DNA from: Verrucomicrobiaceae bacterium
GTDB lineage: Bacteria; Verrucomicrobiota; Verrucomicrobiia; Verrucomicrobiales; Akkermansiaceae
Direction: 5' to 3'
DNA: 64,000 bases
Assembly (NCBI GenBank): GCA_027487435.1
Contig: JAIYDP010000246.1
Location: forward strand, 1 to 64,000
This document shows, piece after piece, positions 12,865 through 62,848 of this stretch. Each line of letters begins with the position of its first letter. The first letter of the stretch is position 1. Position numbers and translations under genes: made by a program. The notes beneath the pieces were generated by a model. The model had not been told where the DNA came from and made no database searches. It was given only the letters and a program-made list of their open reading frames with translations.

Positions 12865-13213
12865 ATCAAATCATCGTGCAACTCAAATCAAATCATCGCG
12901 TAACCCCTATCAAATCATCGCGTAACCCCTATCAAATCATCGTACAGCTCGACCAAATCATTGTGCAACTCGAATCAAATCATTGTGCAACCCAAATCAA
13001 ATCATTGTGCAATCCGAATCAAATCATCGTGCAACCCGAATCAAATCATTGTGCAACCAGCATCAAATCATCGTGCAATCCGAATCAAATCATTGTGTAA
13101 CCCGAATCAAATCATTGTGTAACCCGCATCAAATCATTGTACAGATCGATCATACCCCCGTGCTGCCCCAATCTCAACATTGTCCAGATCGACCAAATCA
13201 CTGCGCAAGTGGA
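12865..13213. repeat. Tandem array A: 22-bp units, about 13 good plus 3 degenerate
   Basis: The unit is ATCAAATCAT followed by TGTGCAACCCGA (variants cgcgTAACCCCT, GTACAGCTCGA), repeated head to tail without spacers. Units start at 12865, 12887, 12909, 12931, 12953 (one 21-bp unit), 12974 and so on every 22 bp to 13149, then decay. Because 22 is not a multiple of 3, the array is not a coding repeat. 22 bp is close to two DNA helical turns. It ends 164 bp upstream of the start of an unrecognised gene (13378) that has a paralogue behind array B. Confidence 0.9.
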
Positions 13214-13377
13214 CTGCACCGAGATACCGCCACAGTGTTTCACTCCATCTACCGAAAGTTACATGCCTCTACATTTTCCCCTTTCCAACTCATCGAAATT
13301 TGCTAAAACAACAGCAACAGCAAAATGGCATGTGACCCATGCCAATCGCTGTCGTTTCACCTCAAAACACCACCATC

Positions 13378-14082
13378 ATGAACGACCGTAATATCCTCCG
13401 CTTCGACCGTGTCCTCCGTGTGCAAACGTTTGGCCGTGATAACACAGAAGACTTTGCATCCGGCAGCAAAGCCCGAGTCTTGTTTCTGGAACTCAATCCG
13501 ATCATCAATGACCTAAAAAACGCCCGCGTCGATAAACTCCGACAACCCGTGGGCAAAAAAGCCTGCATTGATGCTCTCAACGAAGACTTCAAAGACATCG
13601 CCCGCACCGCCCGCGCCATTGTTATCGATGAACCAAACTTCCCCGTGGCAGTTTATCGCCGTCCCCGCACCCGCACGGAAACCCCCATCGCTACCCACGC
13701 CGATGCCCTGCTGCAACTCTTAGAGGATCAAGAACAAGACACCCCCGCCCAGCTCGCCGAGAAGCAGGCCTTGCGCGCCAAGTTCGTCGCCTATGAGCTT
13801 CCCGAAGACTTCGTCGAAGACCTCCGCGCCGACCGCGATGCCCTCACCGACTGCAACAAAAACAAACACAGCGACCTAAGCGAAAGCGTAGAAGCCACCG
13901 CCGCCATCGATGAGCTACTGAACCAAGCGCAAGCCGTTGTCACCCGCTTGGATGCTGCGGTAAAAAACAAATACGCCCGTGTCCCCGAAAAGCTCGCCGC
14001 CTGGAGAAGTGCCAGCCGCACCGCCCGCCCCAGCAAACCCGCCAAATCCACGCCGCCAGCCCCTACCCCACCCACGGCCTAA
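13378..14082 (+). CDS. Unrecognised helical protein, paralogue of the 44.8-kb gene, behind array A
   Basis: 234 aa from the ATG at 13378 (MNDRNILRFD). The family is not recognised. It is rich in Ala, Glu, Asp, Lys and Arg, is predicted mostly helical and has no signal or membrane segment. The C-terminal tail (about 25 residues) is Pro/Ser/Thr/Lys/Arg-rich and ends in a TPP-type repeat. It is clearly homologous to the 44757 gene. Shared features are an ALxED...DI.xTA.AI block, an E.V.ATA.I block, and the ending A-V-T-L-A...Y...LAAW..AS...R....K.TP..TPT; lengths are near equal (234/232). An A/C-rich leader (CACCTCAAAACACCACCATC) precedes the ATG and no Shine-Dalgarno is seen. A strong terminator follows, so this is a one-gene unit of array, gene and terminator. 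The basic tail suggests nucleic-acid or nucleoid contact, but this is only inference. Confidence 0.8.
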   Translation: MNDRNILRFDRVLRVQTFGRDNTEDFASGSKARVLFLELNPIINDLKNARVDKLRQPVGKKACIDALNEDFKDIARTARAIVIDEPNFPVAVYRRPRTRTETPIATHADALLQLLEDQEQDTPAQLAEKQALRAKFVAYELPEDFVEDLRADRDALTDCNKNKHSDLSESVEATAAIDELLNQAQAVVTRLDAAVKNKYARVPEKLAAWRSASRTARPSKPAKSTPPAPTPPTA

Positions 14083-14107
14083 GCGCTGTAAACCCATCCC
14101 CCTTCAC

Positions 14108-14143
14108 AATCCCGACCGATCCACCATCGGTCGGGATTTTTTT
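14108..14143 (+). terminator. Strong intrinsic terminator
   Basis: A perfect 13-bp stem (AATCCCGACCGAT, 14108-14120; ATCGGTCGGGATT, 14126-14138) with a 5-nt loop CCACC, followed by TTTTTC. It sits 26 bp after the stop of the array-A gene and is the clearest rho-independent terminator seen in the window. Confidence 0.93.
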
Positions 14144-14456
14144 CATTCGCGGGCATGAACATGAATCCCAAAAATCACCGTGGCGGCACTTTCCAAGTGC
14201 CATGCCAAAGAGAACGATGATGCCAAGCGCTGGGAAATTACCACCCCCGCACAGCAGACATTCCTATTTTTTTGCTTCCCAAATCTGTCTCTCACCGCTA
14301 GAGCATGTTCATAATCACAGCGCACATGACATATCACGCGAATCCTCTCCACCTACCGCTCATTTGCACACATGGTGAGTATGTTTGGATCTGACCCTGA
14401 TCACATTTTATTCGGTCTGCAACCGAATGAGGAAAAAATCAGTAATTCGTAAATCT
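14144..14456. other. Intergenic stretch without a supported gene
   Basis: Only a small 7-bp hairpin (GGCACTT/AAGTGCC, 14185-14201) is visible. A short minus-strand open frame here has no family features. The 3' part must hold the promoter of the following orphan gene. Confidence 0.5.
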
Positions 14457-44067: not shown

Positions 44068-44259
44068 AAAGGTTGAAGTGGTTTATGGTAAGCCGAATGA
44101 TGAGGCTGTCAATCTCCGCCCGATCGCTGAAAAATTGGGCGTTGGCAGATGCAATTTGCGTTTACCATTGATTCGGAATCCTATTTACCAAGTCTGCATC
44201 ATCCGTGTCAATCTGTGCAATCCGTGTCTCAATTTCTATTGATAGGTAAAGACGTATCT

Positions 44260-44574
44260 GCGACCGTGTCAGCATAATCTGCCAGCTTGTCAGTTTATTC
44301 CACGAGCGTGTTAGATCACTTTGCGAGCGTGTCAGATTTATTTACGAGCGTGTCAGATCGATCCGCGAGCGTGTCAGATCGATCCGCGAGCGTGTCAGAT
44401 TAATGCGCGAGCTTGTCAGATCAATTCGCGAGCGAGTCAGATTGATTCGCGAGCGTGTCAGATTAATCCGCGAGCGTGTCAGATTAATCCGCGAGCGTGT
44501 CAGATTGATTCGCGAGCGTGTCAAATTGATTCGCGAACGTGTCATTTCCATCTGCAAGTGAGTCAATCGCGATA
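44260..44574. repeat. Tandem array B: fifteen 21-bp units
   Basis: Fifteen consecutive 21-bp units without spacers, exact period throughout. The consensus is GCGAGCGTGTCAG followed by ATTAATCC, with variants GATCGATC and GATTGATTC in the second part and weaker edge units. 21 bp equals two helical turns, so every unit faces the same side of the DNA. Both strands stay open in one frame, but unit-to-unit changes include amino-acid changes, so no protein repeat is supported. The array ends 182 bp upstream of the paralogue gene at 44757. The rest of 44068-44756 holds no gene. Confidence 0.93.
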
Positions 44575-45783: not shown

Positions 45784-48700
45784 TCAAAGTTCTGTGATCT
45801 TGAGTCGCCCGAAAAGAGTGGAGCCATTACTAGGAAGGGTAATGGTAACTTGCCGAAGGCCTTGGGAAGTGGTGGGGCCGAGATGAACGCGAGAGTCGGA
45901 TACATGATTGAGATTGATGTCCTTCCAAGTATCGAGATTGGAAGAGTGTTGAAATACGAGGCTACTTTGCGTTAGGGAATCGACTCGCAGCATGAAGCGA
46001 TAGGTTAGATTGGCACCATCTATTTCTGCCTTCGGAAGGATTGCTTTTGAGTGAATGGTAGGGTCTCCACCAAGAGCTGATTCTATGAGATTTGATAAGC
46101 CATCATTGTCAGGATCAGCTAGCGGTGAGGCATTCGTTACTGTAGGATAGCGCGAAATCCAGAGGGCGTATTCACGGGTATTCGGCGGGGATGCCGCAGC
46201 AGCTATGACGGCGGTACGAGCATTGTTGGTATCGAGAGCCACGATGGCGCGCCCTGCTGGAATACCGGGTGTTAGAAAGAGCGTGGATGGACTATCGTTG
46301 GTCCATTTGACATAGGTGCCATCGGTACAAGTAACAAAGGTAAGTCCCAAATTTACTAGAATGGAAGCGATGGATTTTCCGGCGAGCGCTCCGGTAGAAG
46401 GGATGAGAACAGGCTGGTGACGATCAATTTTCGTGCCATCACCGAGCTGCCCAGTGAAGTTGTATCCCCAGCCAGCGAGTGTGCCATCGGAGCATAGGGC
46501 ATAGGCAATGCCACCTCCCGCTGCGATATGGACAATGGTTTTTCCGGCAAGTACACCCGAGGTATCGACAGGAGTAGGGACGGTGGCGTTTGCATTACCG
46601 CCATTGCCGAGCAGGCCAAGGTCATTCTGTCCCCATGAAGCGAGAGCCCCATCCGAGCATAGGGCGAAGCAGGCACCTTCTGAACGGGTCATTTGCACGA
46701 CAGTTCTTCCTGCGAGGAAGCCAGTCATATCGACGAGGACGGGCACGTTGGCCGTGGTAGTTGTGCCATTGCCAAGCTGACCACTATCGTTAACGCCCCA
46801 AGCGACAAGACTGCCATCGGTGCAGAGGGCTAGCGCCCCGTAAGAACTCGCCGCAATGGATAAAATCGATTTGCCCGCAAGTGCTCCGCTGGTGGATGGC
46901 GCGACTGCTATATTCGAAGAAGTTGTGGTGCCGTTACCGAATTGACCGACAGAATTCGACCCCCAACTAGCGAGAGTTCCATCAAGGCAAAGGGCATGGG
47001 TGTGACTGCCGCCAGTGCGGGTGGCAATAGGCAGTCCTGCGAGTGATGGCTGTGGAAGCACAGCGACGGGAACATTGCTGCCGGTATTGTTGCCGTTGCC
47101 GAGCTGAAACAATGAGTTTTGCCCCCAAGCGGCGAGAGTGCCGTCGGAAGTGTGGGCAACTGTGTGGGCTCCACTGATGGTGACACCGATGACGGATTTC
47201 CCTCGAAGGATGCCGGTAGTGACCACAGGAGTGGCACTGGTGGCGGTGCTAGAATTGCCAATGCCGAGCTGCCCCCCATCATTGGTTCCCCAGGCGAGGA
47301 GTTGACGGTCGGCGGGATGCAGAACGAGGTCGTTGCCGTCACCACCTGCGTAGTTGGCGATGAAAGGATGGGCGGTACCATTGTGGACAAGGGTGATGGG
47401 CTGACCGTGGGCAATGTTATCAAATCTTCCGCTAATGCGGGTCAAGCCAGTGATTCGAAGAACAGTAAGAGACGTGCCTGCGGGCGGCGTGAAACCTAGG
47501 CTAAGACTAGCATTAACACCGTTGGCATGAAATGCGGGAAATTCTGCGGCGGATTGATTGGCAGAAGTGAACTTGAACTCGATGCCCAAGGAACGAACAA
47601 TCCGAATCTCATACTGCGTGAAAACGCCACCTGAGCTGGTAGTACGTAGCCTGATTAAGTTGATACCGGGCGAGAGTGGGATGGATGGCAGCGCGGACCC
47701 GTTCGTAATCGCGTTGCCGTTCATGGTGAGTGAAGATCCTGGTAAAGTAGTCGGGGTAAGCAAAATCTCGCTGGTGTTATGCGGGACTGCGATATCATAA
47801 GCAGTTCGCGCAGGGTGGAAAAAGGGAGAAAGGGAGAATGTTTGCGCCGTTAGATTGACGAGTTGCGAAGTTGGTGGGTAAGCACGGAAAGCAATAATCG
47901 TGGTGACGCGAGCTGTTGTGCCATTTTGCGCCGTTACCCGTAAAATGATTCGGTTTTCGCCAAATGAGAGTGGGATCACTGCACTGGTGGCTCCCGAGGC
48001 TAGCGGCGTGCCATTCAGAGTGATGGTAGCGTTAGCATGGGTGGTGGTGGGAGTAAGAGAGAGTGAGGAAGTATTATCGGTAAGATTGATGCGGAAAGCG
48101 CCAGATTGACTGCTGAATGCGGGTGAAAGACTACCACTGCTGGGGATAAGCGAAGCTAGGCTGGCATCGCTGGACGGTTGTGAGCGGGTGACAAGCAGGC
48201 TGTAAGTGAGCGTTGACGTGCCATTGGCAGCGGTGACAACGATCGTGAGGTTGTTGCTGCCGAAAAATAATGGAATGGAGGCACTAGCGGATCCAGAATT
48301 GACTTGTGTGCCGTTGATACGAACAGTGGCAGAAGGGTGCGCCGTTCGAGGCGTGAAGGCGATCGAAGCTGTGGTTGGCGAGACCGAGATACTGTAGCTT
48401 GTATGGCCGGAAATGAAGGGGTCTAACCAATTGCCAGTGTTGCTGGTCAACGTGACGAGAGCTGCGTCGTCAGTTCGTGTAGTGACGTTTTGCGCTGCAA
48501 TGGCGATGCTGTGACTTTTTCCAGCGCCAATAGCAACTGGTGTTTTTCCAGATAGTGTGCCGGAGGTAGTGATGGCGACAGGAGCATTACTATTCGAGCT
48601 GCTGTTGTTACCGATTTGTCCGCTGCTGTTAGAACCCCAACCGACGAGTGTGCCGTCCGAGCAAAGAGCGAGGCTGTGATTCTCACCTGCATCGATATGT

Positions 48701-49968
48701 GTGATCGTTTTTCCTGAGAGAGCACCCGTGTTGGTGACGGGTACCCGCGATGAGGCGTTGGTAGTGGAAGAGTTGCCTAGCTGGCCTGATGTATTGAGCC
48801 CAAAGGATAGGGCGCTGCTCGAGCGTATTAGTGTGTGAGCCCCGCCTCCACTGGCGGCATCGCCATTAATCGCTGCTAGCAAAGAAGGAATAAGGACTGA
48901 ACCTCCGAACGTATCGTTACCTAGTTGGCCATTGCTATTTAGTCCCCAAGTGGCAATTCGTCTGTCAACAGTAACGGCAATGTTATGGGAATCGCCAGCA
49001 GCGATGCGGCTAACAGAATGGACACCAAGTCCGGTGGTTTGGATACCGACGGGGGTCAATGATTGTGATGAAGAGGAGCCAATGCCAAGCTGGCCATTCG
49101 AATTCGCACCCCATGCCGCGACTGTCCCATCGGAGCAAAGGACAAGGCTATGGCGTAGCCCAGCGGCAATAGCAGCGATTCTTTTTCCAGAGAGAACAGC
49201 AGTGCTTGTTATAGACCCAGGCAAACTGCGCTCAGTAGTGGAGTTGTTGCCAAGTTGTCCATTAGAATTTAACCCCCAAGTCGCTAACGTACCATCTGAG
49301 CAAAGAGCAAGGCTGTGCGATCCCCCAGCGGCAATAGCAATAACGGTTTTATTGATAAGTATTCCGTTAGAAGTGATGTCCAGAGGTATTGAACTATTAA
49401 CGAACGAGCCATTACCAAGCTCGCCGGCGGCATTTGACCCCCAAGCTGCGACAGTTCCATCGGCGCAAAGGACGAGGCTGTGCGACGTTCCGGCAGCGAT
49501 CGCAACAGGTGTTTTTCCGGCGAGGACACCAGAGTTCTGGACGGCGACTGGTATGCGGCGAAGGGTTGCGGAGTTGTCGCCAAGCTGACCGCGTTCGTTT
49601 GCGCCCCAAGCGTGAGTGCTGCGGAAGGCCCATTGCAAAACTAGGTCATTTCCATCACCACCATAGTAATCGGCGATAAATTGATAAATGACATTGTTAT
49701 GAATGAGGTGCACGCGATTGCCATGGCCGAGGTTACCGAAACGTCCAGAGATAAGGCTATTGCCTACGACATTGACCAGCGTAAGATTGGTACCCCGAGC
49801 AGGGACAAACGAAAGCGAAAGATCAACAGAGTTGCCCGTTGCCGTATAACTGAGTCCACTGATAGGAATCGTGTCGGCGGAGGTGAAAGAGGCGGGAATA
49901 ATGGCTGCATCGAGCGTAGTGATCGCAAACGCAAAAAAAACTAGCAGATATTTCAGTAAATGCATCAT
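45784..49968 (-). CDS. Giant secreted protein: two RCC1-like propellers joined by cadherin-like repeats
   Basis: 1394 aa from Met 49968, signal peptide. Module order: a GGDGNDLVL-ending beta module (about 20-115); RCC1-like propeller 1 with seven blades (AWGANERGQLGDN, AWGSNAAGELGNG, TWGLNSNGQLGNN, AWGANSNGQLGIG, TWGLNSNGQLGND, SFGLNTSGQLGNS, GWGSNSSGQIGNN). Next come three cadherin-like beta-sandwich repeats of about 95 aa (starting near DDAALVTLTS, SDASLASLIP, YPPTSQLVNL) and a second GGDGNDLVL module. Propeller 2 has six clear blades plus one degenerate (AWGTNDGGQLGIG to GWGYNFTGQLGDG, then a weak TYVKWTNDSP). The C-terminus has an Asp-rich motif (DPDNDGLSNLIE), then about 75 residues. Likely cell-surface or extracellular adhesion or scaffold; no enzymatic site is seen. 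Confidence 0.85.
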   Translation of the reverse strand: MMHLLKYLLVFFAFAITTLDAAIIPASFTSADTIPISGLSYTATGNSVDLSLSFVPARGTNLTLVNVVGNSLISGRFGNLGHGNRVHLIHNNVIYQFIADYYGGDGNDLVLQWAFRSTHAWGANERGQLGDNSATLRRIPVAVQNSGVLAGKTPVAIAAGTSHSLVLCADGTVAAWGSNAAGELGNGSFVNSSIPLDITSNGILINKTVIAIAAGGSHSLALCSDGTLATWGLNSNGQLGNNSTTERSLPGSITSTAVLSGKRIAAIAAGLRHSLVLCSDGTVAAWGANSNGQLGIGSSSSQSLTPVGIQTTGLGVHSVSRIAAGDSHNIAVTVDRRIATWGLNSNGQLGNDTFGGSVLIPSLLAAINGDAASGGGAHTLIRSSSALSFGLNTSGQLGNSSTTNASSRVPVTNTGALSGKTITHIDAGENHSLALCSDGTLVGWGSNSSGQIGNNSSSNSNAPVAITTSGTLSGKTPVAIGAGKSHSIAIAAQNVTTRTDDAALVTLTSNTGNWLDPFISGHTSYSISVSPTTASIAFTPRTAHPSATVRINGTQVNSGSASASIPLFFGSNNLTIVVTAANGTSTLTYSLLVTRSQPSSDASLASLIPSSGSLSPAFSSQSGAFRINLTDNTSSLSLTPTTTHANATITLNGTPLASGATSAVIPLSFGENRIILRVTAQNGTTARVTTIIAFRAYPPTSQLVNLTAQTFSLSPFFHPARTAYDIAVPHNTSEILLTPTTLPGSSLTMNGNAITNGSALPSIPLSPGINLIRLRTTSSGGVFTQYEIRIVRSLGIEFKFTSANQSAAEFPAFHANGVNASLSLGFTPPAGTSLTVLRITGLTRISGRFDNIAHGQPITLVHNGTAHPFIANYAGGDGNDLVLHPADRQLLAWGTNDGGQLGIGNSSTATSATPVVTTGILRGKSVIGVTISGAHTVAHTSDGTLAAWGQNSLFQLGNGNNTGSNVPVAVLPQPSLAGLPIATRTGGSHTHALCLDGTLASWGSNSVGQFGNGTTTSSNIAVAPSTSGALAGKSILSIAASSYGALALCTDGSLVAWGVNDSGQLGNGTTTTANVPVLVDMTGFLAGRTVVQMTRSEGACFALCSDGALASWGQNDLGLLGNGGNANATVPTPVDTSGVLAGKTIVHIAAGGGIAYALCSDGTLAGWGYNFTGQLGDGTKIDRHQPVLIPSTGALAGKSIASILVNLGLTFVTCTDGTYVKWTNDSPSTLFLTPGIPAGRAIVALDTNNARTAVIAAAASPPNTREYALWISRYPTVTNASPLADPDNDGLSNLIESALGGDPTIHSKAILPKAEIDGANLTYRFMLRVDSLTQSSLVFQHSSNLDTWKDINLNHVSDSRVHLGPTTSQGLRQVTITLPSNGSTLFGRLKITEL

Positions 49969-50214
49969 GTGATTTTTGATAGAAAACCAAGAAGAAATCA
50001 AATCTCTTGTCAGTTCGACTTTTTCAATTCCCAGTTACAAAAGAAACGATTTACATGGAGGAAATAACCATACAAGTAGGTGTTAGTATCCATGATTTTA
50101 CTTTCGTTATCTAGATTGATGATCCCGTCCATATTTACCGAGTTACGTGTAAGATAACACATTATTCATGTCAACCATATTGGAGAGATTTATTACGAAT
50201 CTCAACGCGAACAC

Positions 50215-62455: not shown

Positions 62456-62496
62456 GCTGCTTGGCGATACTTGGTGAAAATTTCGCTATGGACCAC

Positions 62497-62706
62497 ACAC
62501 GTGTGCTGCCCTATTTCCAAAATCGGAAATGCCTCGGCACAGGCGTGTTGCCCTATTTCCGAAATCGGAAATGCCCCAGCACAGGTGTGCTGCCCTATTT
62601 CCAAAATCGGAAATGCCTCAGCACACGTGTGCTGCCCTATTTCCGAAATCGGAAATGCCTTAGCACACGTGTGTTGCCCTATTTCCGAAATCGGAAATGC
62701 CCCTCC
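62497..62706. repeat. Tandem array C: five 42-bp units with two palindromes
   Basis: Five exact-period 42-bp units. Each holds ATTTCCRA-AA-TCGGAAAT (8-bp arms) and, at the junctions, up to a perfect 14-bp palindrome AGCACACGTGTGCT. 42 bp is four helical turns. The repeat is read as 14-residue units in one frame, but no gene start is supported. No array-A/B paralogue follows; the next gene is on the opposite strand. It lies directly after the duplicated 20-bp end. Confidence 0.93.
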
Positions 62707-62848
62707 GAACGTTAGGTGGCTACTTGTCAAAACTTGCAATGCCTTGGCAAACGCTTGTTTGATATGCGAGCGGGTATGATGGTTTTTTGGTGGCTCGACT
62801 GGGAGGGAAGAATCATTTTCGCCATCGGATGCTTAGGGAGGGGAGAAA

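Follow-up and report, generated by a model that had tools for sequence, protein, structure and literature searches.

Results

Two tandem arrays, each upstream of a paralogous gene

The 64,000-nucleotide stretch of Verrucomicrobiaceae DNA analysed here (the window) carries two copies of an array-protein module, in which a tandem array of units about two helical turns long stands 5' of a gene for a protein of about 230 aa. Array and gene are paired across the protein family (a 5' array of 21-22-bp period at 12 of the 14 assessable loci in the genus), the period is kept, the repeats of each window array are confined to that array, and the sequence of the units turns over between modules.

In module 1 (W1), array 1 (12866-13214, plus strand) consists of 16 tandem units with the consensus TCAAATCATTGTGCAACCCGAA, mostly of 22 bp with three steps of 21. 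Its last three units are degenerate and match the consensus at 14-15 of 22 positions, where the random 99th percentile is 12. TRF called 12.6 copies of 22 bp at 12865-13140, and the autocorrelation at the period reached z 18.3 against a maximum of 4.3 in 30 shuffles. Gene 1 (P0001, 13378-14082, plus strand) begins 163 bp after the array and encodes 234 aa of no known family, with a basic, proline-rich C-terminal tail; we preferred the start at 13378 over the ATG at 13339 because the N-terminus MND/MNN is conserved in the family. The leader between array and gene carries a promoter-like element (CCTTTCCAACTCATCGAAATTTGCTA, 13280-13305, plus strand) ending in AATTTGCTA, 72 bp before the start codon, and conserved in part in module 1, in a paralogous module on contig C505 and in G007C3. 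We infer that this conserved element is promoter-associated; a scan of the module 1 leader for the sigma-70 consensus on the gene strand gave no match. A hairpin or dyad (TGGCATG-N5-CATGCCA, 13326-13344, of no strand) follows in the leader; inspection by eye shows a dyad akin to it in the C505 paralogue and none in G007C3. Downstream, the strong terminator that a preliminary description of this DNA had placed at the close of gene 1 was found at 14108-14138 (plus strand), with a 13-pair stem, a loop of 5 and a T run.

In module 2 (W2), array 2 (44251-44565, plus strand) has 15 tandem 21-bp units with the consensus GATTAATCCGCGAGCGTGTCA; TRF called 13.8 copies of 21 bp at 44256-44544, and the autocorrelation reached z 20.0 against a maximum of 4.0 in 30 shuffles. 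Unit-by-unit counting thus bears out the two real arrays of 349 and 315 bp that had been described. Gene 2 (P0002, 44757-45455, plus strand, 232 aa) is a paralogue of gene 1: in the family alignment the two proteins share 25% identity, and their relation is detectable at E 3.6e-6. Its ATG lies 191 bp beyond the array, so that of the two spacings proposed earlier the 164 bp of module 1 was nearly exact and the 182 bp of module 2 needs correction. Probes of 30-31 bases, allowed up to three mismatches, were run over the 9,391,796-base draft genome: all nine matches of the array 1 probe lay inside array 1 and all 11 of the array 2 probe inside array 2, and control patterns gave 0. Adjoining module 2, the window also encodes (45784-50001) a 1405-aa protein in which Pfam recognises numerous RCC1 repeats together with cadherin-like domains, and the metallophosphatase adjoining array 2 occurs in one of ten genomes of the genus, its own.

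Neither P0001 nor P0002 matched a Pfam or NCBIfam family above cut-off, and no DNA-binding domain was recognised in them. The core of the protein is negatively charged or neutral in seven members, six of which have a basic tail, and a single-sequence structure model of P0001 was all helix, at low confidence (pLDDT 41). Defence, phage and PDB libraries held no convincing match for the family; a 'ParB-like' match of P0001 to phrog_6392 (E 0.011) was taken as noise. A search with P0001 found no relative among 72,556 plasmid records or in phages, and two queries found none in viral contigs.

The array accompanies the family gene across the genus

The window contig belongs to the genus by its fabV, which is 78-86% identical to that of nine congeners. 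Searching ten genomes of the genus, we found 16 loci of the P0001/P0002 family in five of them and none in the other five; the 16 are 15 rows of this search plus a fragment on C151 of the source genome, and two weak rows, G000:C241 (E 0.24) and G000:C1 (E 0.96), were excluded. Across the phylum, a profile search that covered 288 genomes detected the family in two, both of the source genus. G002:C33 and G005:C240, where the contig ends, were left out of the array count, which leaves the 14 assessable loci. TRF called 5' arrays in W1, W2, C505, G005C225, G008C22, G007C3, G005C62, G005C94, G007C5, G002C102 and G008C71 (3.5 copies in the last), and that of C403, which TRF did not call, was counted solely because a period scan with shuffle controls detected it (period 21, z 7.9 against a shuffle maximum of 4.2). 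The array is absent from G002C42, where the family gene is intact, and from the 5' side of the C151 gene fragment, whose 3' side carries an array of period 21 (z 11.5). That fragment (locus L015, 5500-6078 of G000 C151) is a truncated family gene keeping the N-terminal 40 aa, 70% identical to P0002; behind it come a degenerate 21-bp array and an ORF of 86 aa with no known function.

The earlier proposal of an array-protein module with a drifting repeat is therefore strongly supported, and the opposite outcome that it had named, homologues mostly lacking arrays, is not what the genus presents. The unit length near two helical turns, also proposed, is kept across the family, in which periods are 21, 22 or 43 (that is, 21 and 22 alternating); in G007C5 a period of 85 scores marginally above 43.

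As a control, over 400 kb of two congeners without a family gene there was no array of period 20-23 or 40-46 (TRF score at least 80), and around fabV in nine congeners (142 kb, TRF score at least 100) no TRF row at all; at the congener module loci themselves (109 kb), ten of ten such rows, at eight loci, were module arrays. The control total is thus 0 arrays of module period in about 540 kb of congener DNA, to be set against the 12 pairings in 14. A comparison aimed at an empty site found that the neighbours of fabV are not kept in the congeners.

Within the source genome, 416,543 sampled bases contained four orphan arrays; a 21-bp row in L061, which lies inside a long ORF, and a 1.9-copy row in L062 were left out of this count. 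One is a third array of the window (62496-62753), with 42-bp units that contain a strong dyad (CAGCACACGTGTGCTG, p 0.002) and no family gene adjoining. Another, on C151 (2923-3219, L055), has 14 copies of 21 bp and is flanked, by eye, by a phosphoketolase-like ORF and a large unknown ORF. The others lie at the end of C505 (42 bp) and at C151 72926-72996 (21 bp, 3.4 copies). Since orphan arrays exist and nearly all family genes have an array, the gene nearly always implies the array, and not the converse.

Ten modules have 83-239 bp between the TRF array edge and the ATG. In G005C62 the distance is 509 bp, an HTH-type gene (L038, 7007-7297) lies between array and family gene, and this gene is a close homologue of a 96-aa ArsR/HTH_20-type gene (Pfam) in the same position in C403 (L007, about 1221-1511). 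From its place, this 96-aa HTH protein is a possible DNA-binding partner at the two loci, and another protein than the family's own could therefore be the binder. Extended to all modules, the array would be the gene's control region read by some other factor (an HTH or nucleoid protein) and the family protein, in which no known DNA-binding domain was found, would be only its cargo. We consider this unlikely: the HTH gene cannot fit the gap in the ten other TRF-array modules, and a single factor serving all modules should have kept its site conserved, yet a comparison of ten consensus units, without those of G002C102 and C403, revealed no motif shared across arrays.

Period and place are kept while the sequence turns over

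Sequence comparison shows the C505 module to be a diverged copy of module 1. The genes are 85.6% identical in DNA and the proteins 81%, the leaders 79%, and the 3' side (14080-14159) 92%. The arrays are another matter: their global identity is 70.9%, where ten shuffles averaged 70.0% and reached 73.6% at most, and blastn left them unaligned. Homology starts at 13176, inside the last degenerate units of array 1, ends at 14159, and resumes in a 46-bp patch (14306-14351, plus strand). This patch has a 91% identical counterpart in the corresponding position past the C505 module and is apparently the right end of the duplicated unit. The consensus units of the two arrays retain some likeness (z 3.0). 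We read this pattern as that of two arrays with one ancestor, the core of which would have been re-homogenised to another unit with the leader-side units left behind. Between the two proteins the N-terminal half is less conserved (73.5% identical) than the C-terminal half (88%). The gene pair has dN 0.119 and dS 0.344 (dN/dS about 0.35), and the family genes are under purifying selection, with dN/dS of 0.19-0.37 in five pairs (0.37 for the P0002 gene and G005C225).

A sharply bounded unit shared by module 1 and C505 in unlike flanks would also be expected of a selfish unit, in which array and protein form a small mobile or gene-converting element, the array serves as an end or target, and regulation is secondary. 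The patchy, multicopy distribution with truncated copies fits such an element, and so do the gene neighbourhoods, which differ from locus to locus when their ORFs are compared by eye. Against it, none of the neighbouring genes of the window that were run through Pfam is a transposase or recombinase, and the plasmid, phage and viral searches described above yielded no relative; on this balance we regard a selfish unit as quite improbable.

The same turnover is seen in the wider set. Unit similarity was clear in 2 of 45 array pairs, G005C94-G007C5 (z 5.2) and W1-C505, both between related modules; it was weak (z 1.6) for W2 and G005C225, though their proteins are 62% identical, and over 21 pairs repeat similarity showed no rank correlation with protein identity (rho 0.09, p 0.68). 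Two unrelated pairs involving G005C62, with z 3.5-3.6 on the reverse strand, were taken as chance among 90 comparisons. Taken together, the loci show by comparison that the period and place of the array are kept and that its sequence turns over. The suggestion in the preliminary description that the repeat may be matched to each protein is compatible with these similarities. Because proteins 81% identical stand beside unlike repeats, any recognition of specific sequences would need to have changed fast.

Double-stranded DNA as the most likely nature of the array

Coding was rejected for both window arrays, in which 0 of 6 frames are open. Elsewhere open frames run through the arrays of G007C5 (3 of 6, p 0.02), G008C22 (4), G005C62 (2), G005C225 (1) and G002C102 (1); an ORF extends from the G005C225 array into its family gene. 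A structured RNA was also rejected, the signal being inconsistent over 10 arrays of the 21-22-bp family: the RNA-fold z is +1.45 for the sense strand of array 1, -0.85 for array 2 and -7.65 for C505, values are mixed for the others, and those below -2 belong to C505, G005C225 and G005C62. The array had no Rfam match. In our view it is in all likelihood an element of double-stranded DNA, neither coding nor structured RNA.

The idea that the repeat units contain dyads did not hold for this family (11 arrays, combined p 0.94). Clustering of mismatches inside the unit is seen for array 2 (p 0.015) and is weaker for array 1 (p 0.08), with a combined p of 0.07 over seven 21-22-bp arrays and of 0.002 over eight arrays of the second family described below; this clustering hints that the units may be made of a site plus a spacer. 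The units have no hypervariable spacers, since the mean mismatch to consensus is 6-14% per position in six of seven family arrays; the seventh, C505, gave 38% in this test, with units that stacked badly.

A second family, DUF6261, is paired with four-turn arrays

On C80 of the source genome, 41-bp arrays adjoin proteins that match Pfam DUF6261 (PF19775) with E values of 1.9e-19 and 1.8e-37. The genome has six DUF6261 genes and a 41-42-bp array at five of them, two 5' and three 3' (the latter at L087, L088 and L089, on C80, C24 and C408 of G000); L090 was not counted, as its z of 4.2 equals its shuffle maximum. Among 194 genomes drawn from the phylum, DUF6261 occurs in one, the source genome. 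This draft comprises 506 contigs, is 82% complete and has over twice the length of the congener genomes, and an ORF on C60 (L062, 16444-17355) reads by eye like a mitochondrial carrier protein, so that the draft may contain eukaryotic contigs and the DUF6261 contigs may not all be of one organism.

In Bacteroidota, DUF6261 was found in five of 24 hand-picked genomes (Bacteroides, Phocaeicola, Prevotella and relatives), at 12 loci. All 12, including L223, a short DUF6261 fragment, have a 41-43-bp array on the 5' side, two of them faint. TRF calls ten of these arrays; the remaining two, L217 and L222, come from the period scan (period 41, z 6.6 and 5.3 against shuffle maxima of 5.2 and 3.9). The array of L213 is about 550 bp away, and in L214 a later ATG was taken, since the first lies inside the array. 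The comparison set comes from the surroundings of rRNA genes in Bacteroidota (712 kb), where six loci have arrays of 20-23 or 40-44 bp. These are L108, L109, L131, L132, L188 and L197, with units of 22, 42 or 44 bp; by eye, no DUF6261-like gene was recognised beside the arrays of L108, L131, L132, L188 and L197.

DUF6261 thus resembles the P0001 family in being a protein of unknown function with an adjoining phased array of drifting sequence, and differs from it in having four-turn instead of two-turn units and, at three of the six source-genome loci, a 3' array. Dyads in DUF6261 units are weak (14 arrays, p 0.03), and in most of seven DUF6261 arrays the RNA-fold signal is stronger than in the 21-22-bp family. 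Neither P0001 nor P0002 matched the DUF6261 profile of Pfam. A profile-profile comparison of the families was not significant (P 0.11), its value being better than those of all seven controls (0.39-0.98 for six column shuffles and 0.37 for the reversed profile), and a very distant relation, judged from these profiles, is possible.

Since the pairing is found in two families, an accident of a single family is unlikely. The two-family comparison also bears on whether the arrays are neutral minisatellites, born of slippage in permissive intergenic DNA beside an incidental neighbour. Unit sequences unconstrained between modules, and orphan arrays of 21, 22, 42 or 44 bp in the source genome and in Bacteroidota, are what slippage would leave; it would not, however, account for pairing at 12 of 14 and 12 of 12 loci, against the control frequencies given above, or for a period that follows the gene family (21-22 or 41-43 bp), and we think a neutral origin very improbable.

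Discussion

The reading that we prefer, and hold tentatively as something close to an even proposition, is that the array-protein module duplicates and that its array is a DNA element next to the promoter, to which the module's own protein probably binds so as to tune its gene. The module would be self-contained and would occasionally duplicate, with the layout of a 21-22-bp two-turn array, a short leader with a likely promoter, a gene for a protein of about 230 aa and a terminator. The protein itself, or the small HTH partner in some loci, would occupy sites that stack up on a single face of the helix, and cooperative binding next to the promoter would tune expression of the module's own gene. 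Layout, period and confinement fit such cooperative one-face binding by the own protein; the position of the promoter, the binding of the array and the autoregulation are what we infer from them. Unequal exchange or slippage would keep the units alike within an array and replace their sequence quickly, and each module would therefore keep its period and position, not its sequence. Against this reading stand a protein with no recognised DNA-binding domain and a core that is not basic, units free of dyads and of a shared motif, the intact G002C42 gene with no array, the 3' arrays of the C151 fragment and of three DUF6261 genes, the orphan arrays, and the open frames or RNA-fold signal of some arrays outside the window.

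The own protein might instead bind the array for an architectural end (nucleoid, anchoring or centromere-like) and not for gene regulation. Up to 16 phased sites exceed the usual operators, orphan arrays stand without a family gene, and three DUF6261 arrays of the source genome lie 3' of their gene, all of which would suit that role. The missing family in half of the genus genomes, however, argues against an essential role in the chromosome, no partition NTPase was found among the window neighbours (Pfam), and the array lies 5' in Bacteroidota DUF6261 and in the 21-22-bp family, so an architectural purpose seems to us improbable.

Several known systems place repeats beside a protein gene. Iteron-Rep modules of plasmids (R6K, P1, F) combine direct repeats that are about 17-22 bp long and helically phased with an adjoining gene for a protein of about 230-300 aa. 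The modules described here likewise have helically phased direct repeats beside a gene, but Pfam and NCBIfam recognise no Rep initiator domain in the protein, each genome has several copies with unlike repeats, and P0001 is absent from the plasmid records searched. Centromere arrays (parC-ParR, tubC-TubR) are phased tandem sites 5' of the gene for their binder, often autoregulatory. Here too phased tandem sites lie 5' of a gene, with putative binding; Pfam found no partition NTPase among the neighbours in the window (elsewhere ORFs were viewed by eye), and the family was found in five of the ten genomes. CRISPR and TIGR-Tas also join a repeat array to an adjoining protein gene, whereas the present units have no hypervariable spacers, the proteins no Nop or Cas domain (Pfam/NCBIfam), and the array no Rfam match.

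The layout resembles that of plasmid iterons and centromere arrays, and on present evidence we rate the array-protein class as new in kind. In the portions of open-licence PMC text that were covered, no description links DUF6261 or the P0001 family to arrays, and DUF6261 is barely mentioned in the open-licence full text covered. It is conceivable, and on balance somewhat doubtful, that the modules represent a general, undescribed class: at least two unrelated-looking families, each welded to an adjoining two- or four-turn array whose sequence is replaced by concerted evolution, with each protein reading a private array and specificity and array co-evolving in cis. The class would rate as less new, a variant, if the proteins prove to be plain autoregulators. 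If the proteins do not read their own arrays, a near-constant two- or four-turn array beside the genes of two families would need explaining. If they do, the modules would offer a compact natural system for the change of specificity under a fixed layout, and the class, if true, would be a bacterial parallel to fast-evolving satellite DNA and would give the first testable handle on DUF6261.
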